Shown: positions 28,571 to 43,273 of the stretch, in pieces | Position numbering within the stretch: position 1 is the first letter of the stretch | Layout: each line of letters opens with the position of its first letter | Origin: Cenococcum geophilum 1.58 | Taxonomy: Eukaryota; Ascomycota; Dothideomycetes; Gloniales; Gloniaceae | DNA length: 64,000 bases | Direction: 5' to 3' | NCBI GenBank assembly: GCA_001692895.1 | Contig: KV748179.1 | Coordinates: 4,486,668-4,550,667 of the forward strand | Notes under the pieces: model-generated | What the model saw: only the letters and a program-made list of their open reading frames with translations | Told to the model about the DNA's origin: nothing | The model's database searches: none | Program-made: the position numbers and the translations under genes

Positions 28571-31055
28571 AGTAGTTTAGTAACTACTCTTCTTAGGTCC
28601 CCCTTAGGTAACTTATTCTTTAGCGATCCTTTTTTATTAATACTGCCTAACCTAATTCCTTCCAATACTCCTGTACCTTTCTTATAGCGTTCTTTAAATT
28701 CTCTAGTAGCTCCTAAGTAGTTTTATTATAGCCTATCCACTTAACCTTATACCATATTTTATCGTTAATGTCCTTATAACTAACAATCTTTAAAACTTGC
28801 CATTTATCCTCTTCCTATCTTCTATATATGTCTACTTCGTAGATTAATAGCTTAACATTCCCATATACTGGCTCTAGCATTACGATATACTATATAGGGT
28901 AGATCTTTATCTTAGCTAATAGGTTTAATTTAAATATAACTAGTAAAATTCTTTATGTAATTTTAAAAGGTCCTAGTCTAATATAGTCTAACTTCTTACT
29001 TAGTCGTTAACTCTTAAAAAATTTATATAGTAGCCATACTTTATCTCCCTCCTTAAGATCTAGTCCCTTAGATCTCTTAGCATTATAGTACTTTTTTATT
29101 CTCTCTTATACTCTCTTTACTAATTCTATAAGGTCTATATAAAGGTTTATTAACGTCTTTATTCTTTCTTTAGCTGTGCTACTTATCTTCTTTACTTATC
29201 GTAGTAATAATAATGTTCTTAGCTTATATCCATAATTTGCCTTAAATGGTAATATGCCTATTCCTTCTTATAGTGTTGCATTATATGCAAACTATATAAC
29301 TGGTAATAGCGATACCTAATTATTCTGTGCATAGTTAATATAGTGCCTTAGATACTATTCTAGCGTCTAATTTAGTCTTTCCGTTTAACCATCTGTCTGC
29401 GGATAATATGCGGTAGAAGTTACTACTCTAACTCCTTACTCTGCTAAGAATACCTCCTAGAATACTACTATAAATCTTAAATCTCTATCTGATATCATTT
29501 TACTTAGTGCTCTATGTCTTACAAACACTTCTTTAATATAGATTCTAGCAACATCCTCCGCTAAGATTTCTTCTATGCATGCTATAAAATAGCCCTATTT
29601 AGTTAACTTATCTACTATTACTAAGATCATATTATAATCTTATCCGGTAATAAAATCTCTTAACTTTAGTAACTTAACAATAAAGTCCCATAATATAACC
29701 TCCTATAGTCTCTCTAGTATTTTAATAGGTTATAGCCCTCTATATGGCTTATATCTTATTAGTTTATTCCTTTAGCAATCTAGATACTCTTTTATTACTT
29801 TTTTTGCAATATTTTAGATTCTATTAATAATATATTCTTCTTAAAGTCTTAATACTAAGCCTATTACTCCATTGTGTCCTTAAGTCATTCCCTTATAGAA
29901 ATCTTCCATGAAATGCTCTGCTATGCTTCTTAGGATGTACTTCACCTCTCTATATTTATACAGTATTTCCTCTCCTAAATGTTCCAACTGTTCTTCCAGC
30001 TATGCTTTAAAGATTCTTTATGCCTAAAAGCTTTCTAGTGTCTTATAGACTCTTTCTAGTTCATTATCCTCTTAAGTTACTACTAGCTTAGGGTGGTTGT
30101 ACCTAATTAATCCATCCTTATCTTAGCGTAGCATTACTCCTAATAGCTTCTTGTCATTTTATAGTTTAGCCTTTCTGCTAAGTATATCTGCCCTTGCATT
30201 TTTAGTTCCTTTAGTGTACTAAATCTCAAAATGGTATTCTATAAGTATCTCTGCCTATCTAACTTATTTGCGATTAAGTTCTTTTATTATTAGGAACCCC
30301 GTTAAGTTCTTATAATCCGTCTTAATTATAAATAGTTTTTCTGCGCCTTATAAGAATGCTCTCTATTCCTTAAGTACTGCAACTATACCTAATAACTCTT
30401 TATTATAGACGTCATAGTTTAACTCTAGTGGTGTTATTTTTCTACTATAATATGCCACTAGGTGCTATGCGTCCTTATACTTCTATAGCAAGCATACTCC
30501 TAGTACGTAGTCTAATATATCCGTTTTTATAACCGTATCTAGTCCTAGTTAATAGATCTTAAGGATTGGCTCCTAGGTAAACAATTCCTTAAGTTCTTTA
30601 AACAACTTCTTTTACTTATCTCCCTATATCTATGGTTCCTCTTTCTTTATAAGCTTAGTAAATGGTTTAATATTCTTTAACCATTATGCTATAAACCTTC
30701 TATAGTAGTTGCAAAACCCTAAGAATAACCTTTACTACGTTATATTCTCTAGTTCTTACCAACTCACTATAGCTTTAATCTTCTTTAGGTCTATACTAAT
30801 ATAACCTAGTTCGATAATAAATCCAATAAAATTGGTCTTCCTTATAAAGAACTCGCATTTCTTAATTGCTACTAGCATCTATTCTTCCTATAGTCTCTTT
30901 AAAACCCATTTAACGTATTCCCCGTATCCTTCCTTAGTTATTAAGTAGATAATGATATTATTAAGGTATACTATAATAAACTTATTAAGGTGCTCTCCTA
31001 ATACACTATTAATTCTTTTCTAAAATATTACTAGTATATTTATTAATCCAAATTA

Positions 31056-32063
31056 GTAGTAATTCTTAATTAACGTCTGATACGGATCCTATCTAGGCCC
31101 ACGCAGACTACTCCGTTATAGGGGGAAAACTTATAATTTACAGGAAGAAAACCCTGCAGTTTGGGGGAGGAAAAACCCTATAAGCCACCTTAGTAGGATA
31201 AAAAACCCCGGTTTACTATGTTTGTCTATAGCGGCGGCCCTATAGGCCTACGGCTATATCCTGTCCTCCTTAGATGTTTAAACTTCTTAGGAACCACTGC
31301 TTTCTTCTTTAGCTTATTCTAGCTAGGGTTTACTACGTCCTAGCTAGGCCTTGCCGTTTAATTGCTGTACACTTATAGTTATATTCCATATTTTAACTAC
31401 CCCCCGTATACTATCTCTTGTTAACCATTACTATATACGCTATGCCTCCCCCCCCCTAAGGCCTATTAAAGGCGTAAGGGGGATTTATCTATAAACCACT
31501 ATACTAAAAGGCGAGCGGGACGTGTATGCCTAAGTATCTTTTATGCCTAGGCCCCAGTCACTAGGCCCTCGCTAAGGGTCACTACTCCTTAAGAGGAGAC
31601 AAGAAAACCGTACGGTGTTATCTAGGCTGCTAGGTAGTATTTAATAGTTAATGGCGAGTAACCGCATGCTCCGCGGGCGATTGCCCTGGGGGTTAGGAGG
31701 GGCCGTATATTTACTCGTTGCTCGTTTATAATCGCTCGTTTATTAACGTAAGAGGTCGTTAATGCTCTCTACTAGGGGTTAGGGGATGTTATTAAATGCC
31801 GCGCATTTATATTAGATTATATAGGTGCCTTAATAGGAGAATAGTGTTATTGTTATTGCTGTAAGGGGCACTTAGTAGTTGTTTTCAAGATCTCACCATC
31901 CCATGTAAAAACTTTTCACCACCGCCCACAATACCTATAACTACCACCACTAGGTCGTATCGCACGCTGTGCGACGTCTCTGCGTTGGCTCTAAGTCTAA
32001 ACTTCGAAGACTTAGGTTCGTAGCCGTCACCACGTACAGGTGCAGAGTCCGTTTTCGACGGCC
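31056..32063 (-). mobile_element. X1: short non-LTR element with ribozyme head and shared LINE tail
   Basis: A 1008 bp minus-strand insertion in the reverse transcriptase of B, bounded by a perfect 15 bp target-site duplication TATTAATCCAAATTA (31041-31055 and 32064-32078). A long, variable duplication and one-sided ends are typical of target-primed insertion by LINE machinery. The 5' end (32063) begins exactly with an HDV-like ribozyme. The last 620 bp or so (31056 to about 31685) are the inverted partner of the X2 tail at 37838-38453. The remaining middle (about 31690-31977) holds no protein frame that I recognise. It looks like a non-autonomous relative that shares a 3' tail with a larger LINE. 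The head is hardly RIP-altered. Confidence 0.82.
31978..32063 (-). ncRNA. HDV-like self-cleaving ribozyme at the 5' end of X1
   Basis: Minus strand, 86 nt, G1 at 32063. P1: GGCCGTC (32063-32057) with GACGGCT (32028-32022), giving the G-U wobble at the cleavage site known from HDV. P2: CTCTGC (32047-32042) with GCAGAG (31983-31978). P3: ACC (32041-32039) with GGT (32031-32029), loop TGTACGT. P1.1: GT in that loop with AC just after P1. P4: CTAAGTC (32015-32009) with GACTTAG (31997-31991). The junction before P2 reads AGCCAAC, supplying the catalytic-cytosine pattern CNAA. The fold starts at the very first base after the target-site duplication. HDV-like ribozymes freeing the 5' end are established for R2 and other LINEs; activity here is inferred. 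Confidence 0.85.
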
Positions 32064-32919
32064 TATTAATCCAAATTATATAACTAATGGTTTATATAGT
32101 CCTTCTCTTAATCTAAAGGCTGCCTTTTATTCGTCGCCTTCCTTAATTCTAATCTAATGGTATACCTATCTCAGATCTATCTTTATAAAGATTTGCGCGT
32201 TACCTATCCAATCTTAGATTTCGCTAATTAAGGGTAAAGAATATCTATCCTTTCAAGTAATGCTATCTATAGTTAATGCATAATCTAAATTTCCTATTCT
32301 TCTTTAGTACGAACAGTACTGGATAATCTACTAATAACTGCAATAGTCTAATGTATCCCTTTCATAAGTTCTCTTAGATAAACTCTTTAAGTGCGCTCGC
32401 CTCCTCTTAAGTAAGCTTATAGGTTAGAAAGAACCTTAGACTTATTCCTAGTTCTAACTCTATCTTATAGTTCTATACTATATAGTCTACCAGCTTTTCA
32501 CTTTTTAAACTCTATAGTTTTTTACCATACTTATGGTATCTCTTTAGTACATAACTTAAGCCTTACTTAGTCTCTTTATATATTACTCCAACTTAGTACT
32601 ATACTAACTTAGTTTATTATCGTATCTTGCGTTACTAAGTATCTCTAATATTAACCTAACCTGTAATCCAATTAATCTTTAGATTATATTCTTGTAACTA
32701 AGGTATACCTAATACAGCCTTATCCTGTCCCAATGGTAGGATATTAAAAAACATCTTAATTCGTCTTCCTTTAATGGTTATCTAAATAGGTCCTATTTTA
32801 AGATTAATAATCCCTCCTCTATAGGTTATTAGATCTCCTAAAATCGTGACTAATAGGTAAGGTTGTTCCTTCTATCTATAAGGTAATCCTATTCTCTTAA
32901 CTGCTACTAGTAAGATATA

Positions 32920-36030: not shown

Positions 36031-36044
36031 TAAAACCTAGGCTT

Positions 36045-36129
36045 GCCCGCGAAGCCCTACTGCACGCGTCCACGTCGCCGCGGGTGGAAACATTATTAGG
36101 ATACTGATCCTTTTGATGGCCAAGTGCAG
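36045..36129 (+). ncRNA. HDV-like self-cleaving ribozyme at the 5' end of X2
   Basis: Plus strand, 85 nt, G1 at 36045. P1: GCCCGCG (36045-36051) with CGCGGGT (36079-36085), again with a G-U wobble at position 1. P2: CTGCAC (36060-36065) with GTGCAG (36124-36129). P3: GCG (36066-36068) with CGC (36076-36078), loop TCCACGT, close to the HDV loop UCCUCGC. P1.1: CC in that loop with GG at 36086-36087. P4: AGGAT (36098-36102) with ATCCT (36107-36111). The junction before P2 reads GGCCAA (36118-36123), so C36120 is the likely catalytic cytosine. The sequence differs from X1 at most stem positions while the fold is kept. Overlapping open frames here are shadows. Confidence 0.9.
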
Positions 36130-38453
36130 AGGCGATGGTAGAGAGCCGTCGCAGCGCGTGCAGCGCGCTGTCGTTCGACTCTGTGGTGTTGAGCCCGCGA
36201 CGCGTACGAAGTATCGCCCTCAACAACACCAGGAGCCTCACTGCCTCCGCTTGGAGCTCCCGTTCTACCATCCAGGGAGGCCTACCAAGGGAAACTGGGA
36301 TACGAAAACCACCCAATGTACGTCTACCTAGCTCGTAGCTAGGGCCGAAACTAGCCTTATTAAGCTAGCGGATGCGGACGCGTCCTAGGCGTACAATAGG
36401 ATACCCTTGGGCTTACACTAGCTCTGAGACCGAATGGATATAGCGAGGGCGTAGGGAACCCTTTTTTATAAGAACTTGTTAAGGTTAACGCGTCGCAGAT
36501 ACCTCGTACGAAACTTATTAAGGCCCTGAAGGCCACCGCGAAAAACTTGTTAAGGCCCTGCCTAAAGAACTCGTTAAGGCCCCTCCAAGGGCCTATCTAG
36601 TATACCGGTACACCCAGGTGACTCAGAAGAGGGTCTTAATAGGCGTAGTGCGCGCAACCTAGTCAACAGCGACGCAATAGCAACGCGACGGCAACTAGAC
36701 GGCTTAATGAGGTGGAAACACGGGCAAAGCTCTAGGCAGCAGAAACATAGACCAGCTTTAACAGCCCCATGGCGTTAAAAGGCGACTTATAGGAGGGTCT
36801 TAATAGGCGTAGTGCACGCAACCTAATGTATATATACAAGGCTACTTATAAAAGGGTCTTAATAGGCGTAGTGTATATAACCTAATATATATATATAGGG
36901 GAGGCTGCAGGGGAAATATAGGCCAGTTAGATAAGGACTTAATAGTTAGAGATATAGGCACAGCTTATAAAAAGGGGGGACACAAGCTTAGTTAGTAGGA
37001 GAGGGGGGAGTAGGTTACCTAGCACGGGACCTAGTTTATAGCCCCCTCCTATAAGATACGGTCGGCCTATTATAGGGAGACCCTTATAGGTAACGCAAAA
37101 CGGGAGCTAGTAGTGTATAGGGTATTGCGCCCCTATATTACTACTAGTTTCCTATAGAGCGTAGTATATAGTAGCTACTACTAGCTCTAAGGACCTTACC
37201 CCTTAGCTAGGCTCTAACCCCTAGTACACTTAGTATATAGGTAGGATTACGTCCTAGCCAGAAAAGATTACTACGTAGCTTAAGAGAACGGATGTATATA
37301 TTAGTATATTAATAGACGGAACCGTTCGCCTCTAGGGCAGTATACCAGTAAGATATGCTTAAGGAGCAAACAGGAGTTACTTAGGTAGGGGAGGCTTTTT
37401 AGTTTGGGCCTTAACTATAGAAGGTACCTAAGGCTTCTATACTATAGAATGCAGCCATAACACCTTTATAGGATTATACTAGTAGGCACATAAGACGGGA
37501 GTTACAACCCCTAGAAAAGGCAGCTTATGCCTATACCGGCAGAAATAATAAAAAAGGTATAAAACTAGAGGCTATAGAAGGCTCCTAAGCCGTATAAAAG
37601 CGTACTAACTCTAGGAGGAGACTCTTATACAGACCGTAGGGGGGCGGACTAGTGCTTAGGCCAATCCCATTATAAGATATCCAAAAGAACTAGTAAGACC
37701 CCCTATTAAGGTGGTGGCAGCCAACTGCTTATAGAAAGCCCCTAGGCCTTTAGGCCTAGGTTTAGGACAAATACTAGAAAACTAGGGTAAAGGCCTAGAT
37801 AAGCAGGCACGTTAAACTCTACTATATAACTACCTGCCCCAGGGCAATCGCCCATAAAGCTGCGGTTACTCGCCATTAACTATTAAATACTACCTAGCAG
37901 CCTAGACAATACCGTACGGTTTTTCTATCTCCTCTTAAGGAGTGGTAACCCTTAGCGAGGGCCTAGTGACTAGGGCCTAGGCATAAAAGATACTTAGGCA
38001 TACACGTCCCACTCGCCTTTTAGTATAGTAGTAGTTTATAAATAAATCCCCCTTACGCCTTTAATAGGCCTTAGGGGGGGGAAGGTATGGCGTATATAGC
38101 AATAGTTAACAAGAGATAGTATATAGGGGGTGGTTAAAATACGGAATACAACTATAAGTATATAGCAATTAAACGGCAAGGACTAGCTAGGATAAGCTAG
38201 AGAAGGAAGCAGTAGTTCCTAAAGAGTTTAAATATCTAAGGAGGACAGGATATAGCCGTAGGCCCGTAGGGCCGCCGCTATGGACGGACATGGCAAACCG
38301 GGGTTTTTTATTCTATTAAGGTGGCTTATAGGGTTTTTCCTCCCCCAAACTACAGGGTTTTCTTTCTGTAAATTATAAGTTTTCCCCCTGTAACGGAGTA
38401 GTCTGCGTGGGCCTAGATAGGATCCGTATTAGACGTTAATTAAGAATTACTAC
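36045..38453 (+). mobile_element. X2: non-LTR element with ribozyme head, inside element N
   Basis: A 2409 bp plus-strand insertion with a perfect 14 bp target-site duplication TAAAACCTAGGCTT (36031-36044 and 38454-38467). It begins at its first base with an HDV-like ribozyme and ends in TTAAGAATTACTAC, the same 3' end as X1. The tail of about 620 bp (37838-38453) is shared with X1. The middle has four CTTGTTAAGGCCC-like units at about 36472-36600 and three GGGTCTTAATAGGCGTAGTG units starting at 36631, 36795 and 36854. A long plus-strand frame between about 37300 and 37800 is interrupted at many Q/W codons and resembles no reverse transcriptase I know, so the element may be non-autonomous. 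The head is barely touched by RIP, the body moderately. Confidence 0.8.
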
Positions 38454-38467
38454 TAAAACCTAGGCTT

Positions 38468-42999: not shown

Positions 43000-43200
43000 T
43001 GCACTGCATTATTAAATACAGCAGTATGCCGCACTGCATTATTAAATATAGTAGTATGCCGCACTGCATTGTTGAATATAGCAGTATACCGCACTATATT
43101 GTTAAATACAGCAGTATGCAGCAGTATGCCGCAATATATTATTAAATGCAGCAGTATGCCGCACTGCATTATTAAATGCAGCAGTATACCGCACCTTAGT
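43000..43200. repeat. 30 bp tandem array at the right end of element N
   Basis: About six and a half units of 30 bp built on CAGCAGTATGCCGCACTGCA followed by TTATTAAATA. It lies about 75 bp from the right TIR. Open frames on both strands across it are shadows of the repeat. Confidence 0.9.
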
Positions 43201-43273
43201 CAATACTATACGCTACACGTTGTAGTGCGCGGAATGCGCATTTGGCCGCCAAATGCTGCCAAATGCTGTAAAA

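Follow-up and report, generated by a model that had tools for sequence, protein, structure and literature searches.

Chimeric retroelements of Cenococcum geophilum open with a predicted HDV-like ribozyme at the 5' end of an apparently non-coding module

In a 64-kb stretch of Cenococcum geophilum DNA, which we refer to as the window, and in related loci of the same genome, we found an apparently non-coding module (module A) that opens with the fold of an HDV-like ribozyme. Close to one 3' end, it is fused with 5'-truncated fragments of several elements. The placement of this ribozyme at the exact 5' end of the module is supported by its genomic copies, by their target-site duplications (TSDs), by a second family of the same architecture and by the ranking of Rfam families. 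We consider it probable that the ribozyme sets the 5' end of an A RNA and that the RT of a LINE reaches this RNA by template jumping.

Results

An HDV-like fold begins at the first base of a TSD-flanked chimera

Within the 85 bases at 36045-36129, all helices of the HDV-like double pseudoknot are formed (Table 1). In reading order the sequence is GCCCGCG AAGCCCTA CTGCAC GCG TCCACGT CGC CGCGGGT GG AAA CATTATTAGGAT ACTG ATCCTTTTGATG GCCAA GTGCAG, the segments being P1, J1/2, P2, P3, L3, P3', P1', P1.1', J, P4, L4, P4', J4/2 and P2'. A first-pass annotation made from the letters of the window had proposed this fold, and P1, P2, P3, L3 and P1.1 lie where it placed them, with C36120 (i.e., the first C of GCCAA) in the catalytic position. 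It was also right that a P4 is present but not that it measures 5 bp: P4 is formed by CATTATTAGGAT/ATCCTTTTGATG and has 12 rows with two T-T mismatches, and J4/2 is therefore GCCAA rather than the GGCCAA claimed. The terminal G-U of P1 is as in HDV. We infer from this fold that family A RNA may cleave itself, with the predicted site directly 5' of G36045.

The fold starts at the first base after a perfect 14-bp TSD, as the annotation had noted. This 14-mer, TAAAACCTAGGCTT, is found twice in the window and nowhere else there (expected 0.01), and its copies at 36031-36044 and 38454-38467 thus delimit an inserted unit, X2, of 2409 bp (36045-38453). X2 is chimeric, module A being followed by the 3' end of a SINE-like element, B. 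For the last 617 bp of X2, 37 of 40 matches start only at element position 1793 or four bases later, and the other three, the window included, cover more. X2 gave no RT match in three forward read-through frames; a Pfam match to RNaseD_HRDC_C (E 0.011) was below the cut-off and was set aside. The annotation had read X2 as a non-LTR element carrying the ribozyme of a LINE. An HDV-like ribozyme at its exact 5' end is supported, but the remainder of that reading is not. The RT-coding LINE that we describe below (D1) has another 5' end, at which no HDV match was obtained. Module A of X2 also includes two tandem 59-bp units at 36779-36895, with a related stretch just upstream.

Table 1 Predicted ribozymes, elements and target-site duplications in the window (positions of the window)
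Feature	Position	Strand	Detail
Complete family-B element, 1008 bp	31056..32063	-	15-bp TSD TAATTTGGATTAATA at 32064-32078 and 31041-31055
HDV-like ribozyme, family B, predicted	31978..32063	-	P1 GGCCGTC/GACGGCT, P2 CTCTGC/GCAGAG, P3 ACC/GGT, L3 TGTACGT, P1.1 GT/AC, P4 CTAAGTCT/AGACTTAG, J4/2 AGCCAAC
Left target-site duplication TAAAACCTAGGCTT	36031..36044	.	
Module A, ~1.79 kb, apparently non-coding	36045..37838	+	common 5' part of copies; ends ...TATAACTACCTGCC
HDV-like ribozyme, family A, predicted	36045..36129	+	evidence from fold, copies, Rfam and descriptor
P1 5' strand GCCCGCG, family A	36045..36051	+	pairs with 36079-36085 (CGCGGGT), terminal G-U
P2 5' strand CTGCAC, family A	36060..36065	+	pairs with 36124-36129 (GTGCAG)
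P3 GCG/CGC with L3 TCCACGT, family A	36066..36078	+	
P1.1 CC/GG, family A	C36070-C36071 with G36086-G36087	+	
P4 CATTATTAGGAT/ATCCTTTTGATG, loop ACTG, family A	36091..36118	+	
J4/2 GCCAA, family A	36119..36123	+	C36120 in catalytic position
Last 617 bp of family-B SINE-like element, fused to module A	37837..38453	+	CC shared at junction
Right target-site duplication TAAAACCTAGGCTT	38454..38467	.	

Module A is joined to several different 3' parts

The first 43 nt of A, allowing up to three mismatches, occur at 269 places in the genome (140 forward, 129 reverse), while the reversed pattern occurs at none; among the matches listed, all are exact. We analysed the best 40 of 467 first-look candidates, window included. 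These copies match from base 1 (34 of 40) or base 2 (six of 40) of the ribozyme, and the query itself begins at base 1. The 20 nt on their 5' side seem unrelated to one another except in L041, where there is a 20-nt partial duplication.

Of the at least 269 places, 21 were read through, namely 20 fully fetched loci and the window. All have the module in common, which measures ~1.79 kb in X2 and less in some loci, and differ from one another beyond it. The motif TATAACTACCT, with up to two substitutions, marks the module end in 18 of the 21 loci; it carries an inserted base in L032 and is absent from L024 and L025, which end some ten bases short of it. At the other end, TSDs of 12-15 bp stop exactly before the ribozyme in 17 of the 21, whereas the TSD of L032 is two bases off, that of L023 is doubtful and none was found for L031 and L033. 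In 20 loci, module A contains no stop-free frame of 130 aa (a few start in its last bases) and is thus probably non-coding, RIP being another possible cause of such an absence.

Beyond the module end, in the loci other than L031 and L033, the 3' parts derive from D1 in nine loci (L020, L021, L022, L023, L024, L025, L027, L028 and L029), from B in X2 and L019, and from a poly-A-tailed group in L032 and L034-L038; L026 and L030 have two others. L019 combines A with a nearly full-length B that starts inside GGCCGTC. With module ends set by hand, no two of the 21 loci aligned for at least 40 nt on each side of both module ends, and thus no junction is shared among them.

Some loci have further features. 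In L020 and L036 a second, 5'-truncated module A lies between the first A and the 3' part, the arrangement expected of double template jumps. The 3' part of L025 appears to open with a reversed D1 3' end, with a forward one much later. At the junctions of X2, L019 and L021, donor and module have a few C-rich bases in common, which recalls the GCC motif described in chimeras of Magnaporthe.

D1 carries RVT_1 (E 2.2e-11 in L024). Its best relatives have RT and endonuclease domains, and the few that are named include Fusarium solani at 27% identity. The native 5' end of D1, AGGAGCTCTTGCTGCACCC, is the common start of three fetched copies (L105 and L106 at 1601, L107 at 1633 reversed), and no HDV match was obtained at this end in the three copies. 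These data bear on an alternative in which one autonomous LINE has module A, ribozyme included, as its ordinary 5' UTR and gave rise to the variable 3' parts by internal deletion, like R2-derived SIDEs. Both LINE 5'-end HDV-like ribozymes and SIDEs made of a ribozyme plus a 3' end are established, according to the accessible text of PMC3414825, and L024 carries A followed by an RT region, with L029 carrying the same LINE. However, D1, the LINE family whose 5' end was read, has its own 5' end without a ribozyme in these three copies, no pair of the 21 loci (of at least 269 places) has a junction in common, and several unrelated 3' parts follow A. We therefore regard a 5' UTR origin of module A as unlikely.

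Two families keep one HDV-like architecture

Among the 21 loci, mean pairwise identity is 0.985 in the ribozyme outside P4, 0.806 in P4 and ~0.6 at the module end. In the identity profile of these loci the first 46 nt rank fourth of 1740 windows, a profile biased by the fact that the loci were picked by 5'-end similarity. The double pseudoknot is kept across copies: in alignment A1, which comprises 34 of the 40 A copies (26 distinct rows; the six without G1 were left out), 96.7% of 728 cells are paired. Copies that break P1 or P2, which the annotation had named as evidence against the fold, are few, with 99.5% and 98.1% of cells paired, respectively, in the 26 distinct rows. Invariant in all 34 rows are T25 and G30 (the U and G of L3), C76 (the catalytic C of J4/2), A78 and A79. 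Covariation within A is weak because only two pairs show changes on both sides, a count equalled in 128 of 500 shuffles; one P4 pair is AU in 22 rows and UA in four. In the six copies without G1 (L048, L049, L052, L054, L055 and L056), an A precedes CCCGCG. The same replacement occurs in four copies of family B (L066, L070, L087 and L096), and in all ten it would keep the terminal P1 pair as A-U.

Family B is a ~1-kb SINE-like element whose 25-nt core (up to three mismatches) is found at 569 places in the genome, with 0 for the reversed control. TSDs were found by script in six of nine fetched loci, and the complete copy in the window is flanked by one as well (Table 1). Near the 3' end of L019, 69 bp are ~80% identical to the D1 3' end in L021. 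In being short, in having TSDs and in having a 3' end similar to that of a partner LINE, B would appear to be a LINE-dependent SINE.

The 5' end of B reads GGCCGTC GAAAACGGA CTCTGC ACC TGTACGT GGT GACGGCT AC GAAC CTAAGTCT ... AGACTTAG AGCCAAC GCAGAG and has the five-helix architecture of A with compensated letters. Alignment A2 comprises 36 of 40 B copies (35 distinct rows; the four whose first base is A were left out). In it, 94.6% of cells are paired and five pairs show changes on both sides (18 of 500 shuffles). One of the two P1.1 pairs is broken in 20 of the 35 distinct rows, through a G-to-A change in TG context that is probably RIP-like. The C and both A of J4/2 are invariant in the 34 A and 36 B rows together.

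We compared the two families directly in alignment A3, which consists of 10 A and 10 B rows chosen by hand (19 distinct) and covers P2, P3 and P1.1. Here 98.6% of 209 cells are paired, as against at most 49.8% in slid controls, and seven of 11 tested pairs differ on both sides between A and B. The covariation score is 0.645 versus 0.259 when shuffled (0 of 500 as high), but 170 of 500 shuffles equal the number of pairs changed on both sides, and 500 of 500 equal that of further pair types. The changes between A and B trace to one split between two families and not to independent events. On its fold, its register and its compensated letters, on which the assignment rests, the 5' end of B is a putative HDV-like ribozyme.

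The 5' sequence could instead be conserved for another reason, e.g., as an internal promoter, with a pseudoknot that is no longer catalytic. The trypanosomatid Pr77 hallmark is both promoter and ribozyme, as described in the available parts of PMC4748587, PMC8190864 and PMC4035085, and the imperfect P1.1 of many B rows (20 of 35) would suit such a loss. Yet A and B differ in their letters while retaining a common five-helix architecture, and the U and G of L3 and the C of J4/2 are those of the HDV class. A terminal G-U as in HDV also speaks against a promoter alone, and we find this explanation very unlikely.

HDV families top the Rfam ranking

The annotation had suggested a scan with covariance models and had named the lack of a significant match as evidence against the fold. 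Over the whole 64-kb window, no Rfam family matched at its gathering threshold. Below threshold, however, the matches are specific to HDV families: a 211-base scan with 4227 families returned just three at E≤10, all HDV-type and all below gathering, namely RF02682 (29.5 bits, E 5.7e-4), RF01788 (16.1 bits, E 0.027) and RF00094 (25.4 bits, E 0.057). Among 19 further A copies, 16 had at least one HDV-type match at E≤10 (15 to RF00094) and L043, L044 and L046 had none; the same listing also held five matches to three unrelated families. The best scores of family A copies, 33.7 bits for RF00094 and 32.7 bits for RF02682, stay below the gathering values of 50 and 44 bits.

Matches to family B are fainter. 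L013 gave no HDV match in an Rfam scan. Among 20 B copies scanned at E≤10, RF02682 was the sole family, matching six copies in register (E 1 to 9.3, best 20.8 of 44 bits). When built from A only, a covariance model did not detect B, either in the window (E≤10) or among 40 loci (E≤1). The model R3 includes A and B rows, and its matches to either family are by construction.

A double-pseudoknot descriptor that includes P4 and J4/2 has two matches on both strands of the 64 kb, 36045+ and 32063-. The annotation had suggested a scan of this kind; because both folds were already known when our descriptor was designed, it is a gauge of rarity and no blind test. Without P4, the descriptor picked out A copies, some B copies and one AT-rich match (L023:2819) in 266 kb of real loci. 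That the fold arose by chance is exceedingly improbable: the descriptor without P4 does match 165 times on the two strands of 400 Markov surrogates (64 kb each), but with P4 and J4/2 there are 59 matches in 2500 Markov-1 surrogates, both matches in the window start at the first base of TSD-flanked elements, and HDV families top the Rfam ranking.

A candidate third ribozyme at 43191-43268 (A model, 18.6 bits, E 0.016) was judged spurious. It has non-standard pairs in P1, P3 and P4, its P2 could not be drawn, and it is located at the border of a very high-copy repeat that has the palindrome CATTTGGC/GCCAAATG.

Discussion

We propose that the 85-base HDV-like ribozyme would set the 5' end of a separate, non-coding module A RNA directly before G36045, and that the second, diverged ribozyme would do likewise for the SINE-like family B. 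The LINE enzyme, with RT and AP-type endonuclease, would begin target-primed reverse transcription at the 3' end of a LINE or SINE RNA, and the RT would quit this template part-way or near its 5' end. It would then jump to module A RNA, landing on the 3' end near CTACCTGCC, and copy A up to the 5' end made by the ribozyme. The product would be a chimera with a fixed 5' module, a variable 3' part and TSDs.

HDV ribozymes of fungi reportedly include an example from Trichoderma, and earlier examples are reportedly those of Webb 2009 and of Webb and Luptak 2011. In the portion of Li and Breaker 2017 (PMC5640933) available to us, 230 variant representatives in 26 species are described, two of them shown to cleave, 11 earlier conventional fungal HDV ribozymes are counted, and gene associations are given as widely variable; the words 'retrotransposon' and 'transpos' are absent from its main text. 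Those ribozymes and A and B alike are HDV-class double pseudoknots in fungal genomes with many copies. The variants, as characterized in that portion, are typically marked by a cleavage-site C-G, a loop E within P4 and one additional base separating P2 from P3, whereas A and B have a terminal G-U, a plain P4 and no extra base. Lacking these three marks, A and B thus resemble the conventional HDV type. The annotation's remark that the family may be undescribed is therefore too broad for HDV ribozymes in fungi, which PMC5640933 describes, but the retroelement setting seems new. Among open-licence papers, we found none that links fungal HDV ribozymes to non-LTR elements or WEIRD. Fungal viroid-like RNAs and ambiviruses are treated together with other ribozymes in the accessible text of PMC8865084 and PMC10237039.

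It is well documented that R2, L1Tc and related elements have HDV-like ribozymes at their ends (available parts of PMC3774820, PMC4035085, PMC8256844 and PMC7761336), and the annotation's statement that they occur at LINE 5' ends, for R2 and others, agrees with PMC3414825. The ribozymes of R2 and L1Tc/Pr77 (RF00094, RF02682, RF01788) have in common with A and B the double pseudoknot, the U and G of L3, the C of J4/2 and a position at the 5' end of an element. Unlike them, A and B score below Rfam gathering and sit on apparently non-coding elements, the RT-coding D1 being without a ribozyme. Trypanosomatid SIDER and NARTc elements, as presented in part of PMC4035085, are likewise short, non-autonomous and headed by an HDV-like ribozyme, but theirs is common to the autonomous L1Tc/ingi whereas that of B is not shared with D1. 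In the hybrid R2/R1 SIDEs of Drosophila, an R2 ribozyme is joined to the R1 3' end with 14-bp TSDs (PMC3414825, consulted in part); like X2, these place an HDV-like ribozyme on the 3' end of another element, whose machinery moves them. The SIDEs form families in rDNA, however, while our 21 loci lie at dispersed sites with no shared junction.

The architecture is that of the MINE elements of Magnaporthe, which, according to the accessible part of PMC2104539, combine WEIRD, a non-coding transcript, with LINE or SINE copies that are 5'-truncated and are explained by template switching. X2 and the A loci have the same make-up, i.e., a non-coding 5' module, a 5'-truncated LINE or SINE part and TSDs, and thus fit the WEIRD/MINE type of chimera. 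Double switches are found in both, as are TSDs, which measure 10-20 bp in MINE/WEIRD. By the same partial text, WEIRD is 1.1 kb and 33 Magnaporthe chimeras are known, compared with 1.79 kb for module A and 269 ribozyme places here (21 read through); no separate WEIRD copy was found, and the MINE transcripts EF585235-EF585237 are named. Module A opens with an HDV-like fold, whereas the word 'ribozyme' is absent from PMC2104539.

A wider reading is tentative, and we hold it with some doubt. Module A may be a retroelement that lacks its own 3' end and persists, as a ribozyme-headed non-coding RNA, solely by serving as a landing site for template-jumping LINE RT. WEIRD of Magnaporthe, hitherto an orphan transcript, might then be another such element that has an HDV-like ribozyme too, and among the 230 fungal HDV ribozymes many whose context is unexplained might mark such 5' ends.

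In C. geophilum, hundreds of HDV-like copies head two non-autonomous families in one genome, while an RT-coding LINE that would feed them has none. Ribozyme-made 5' ends and template jumping offer a concrete account of how chimeric retroelements of the WEIRD type could get a constant 5' end, and a possible reason for the widely variable gene associations of fungal HDV ribozymes.
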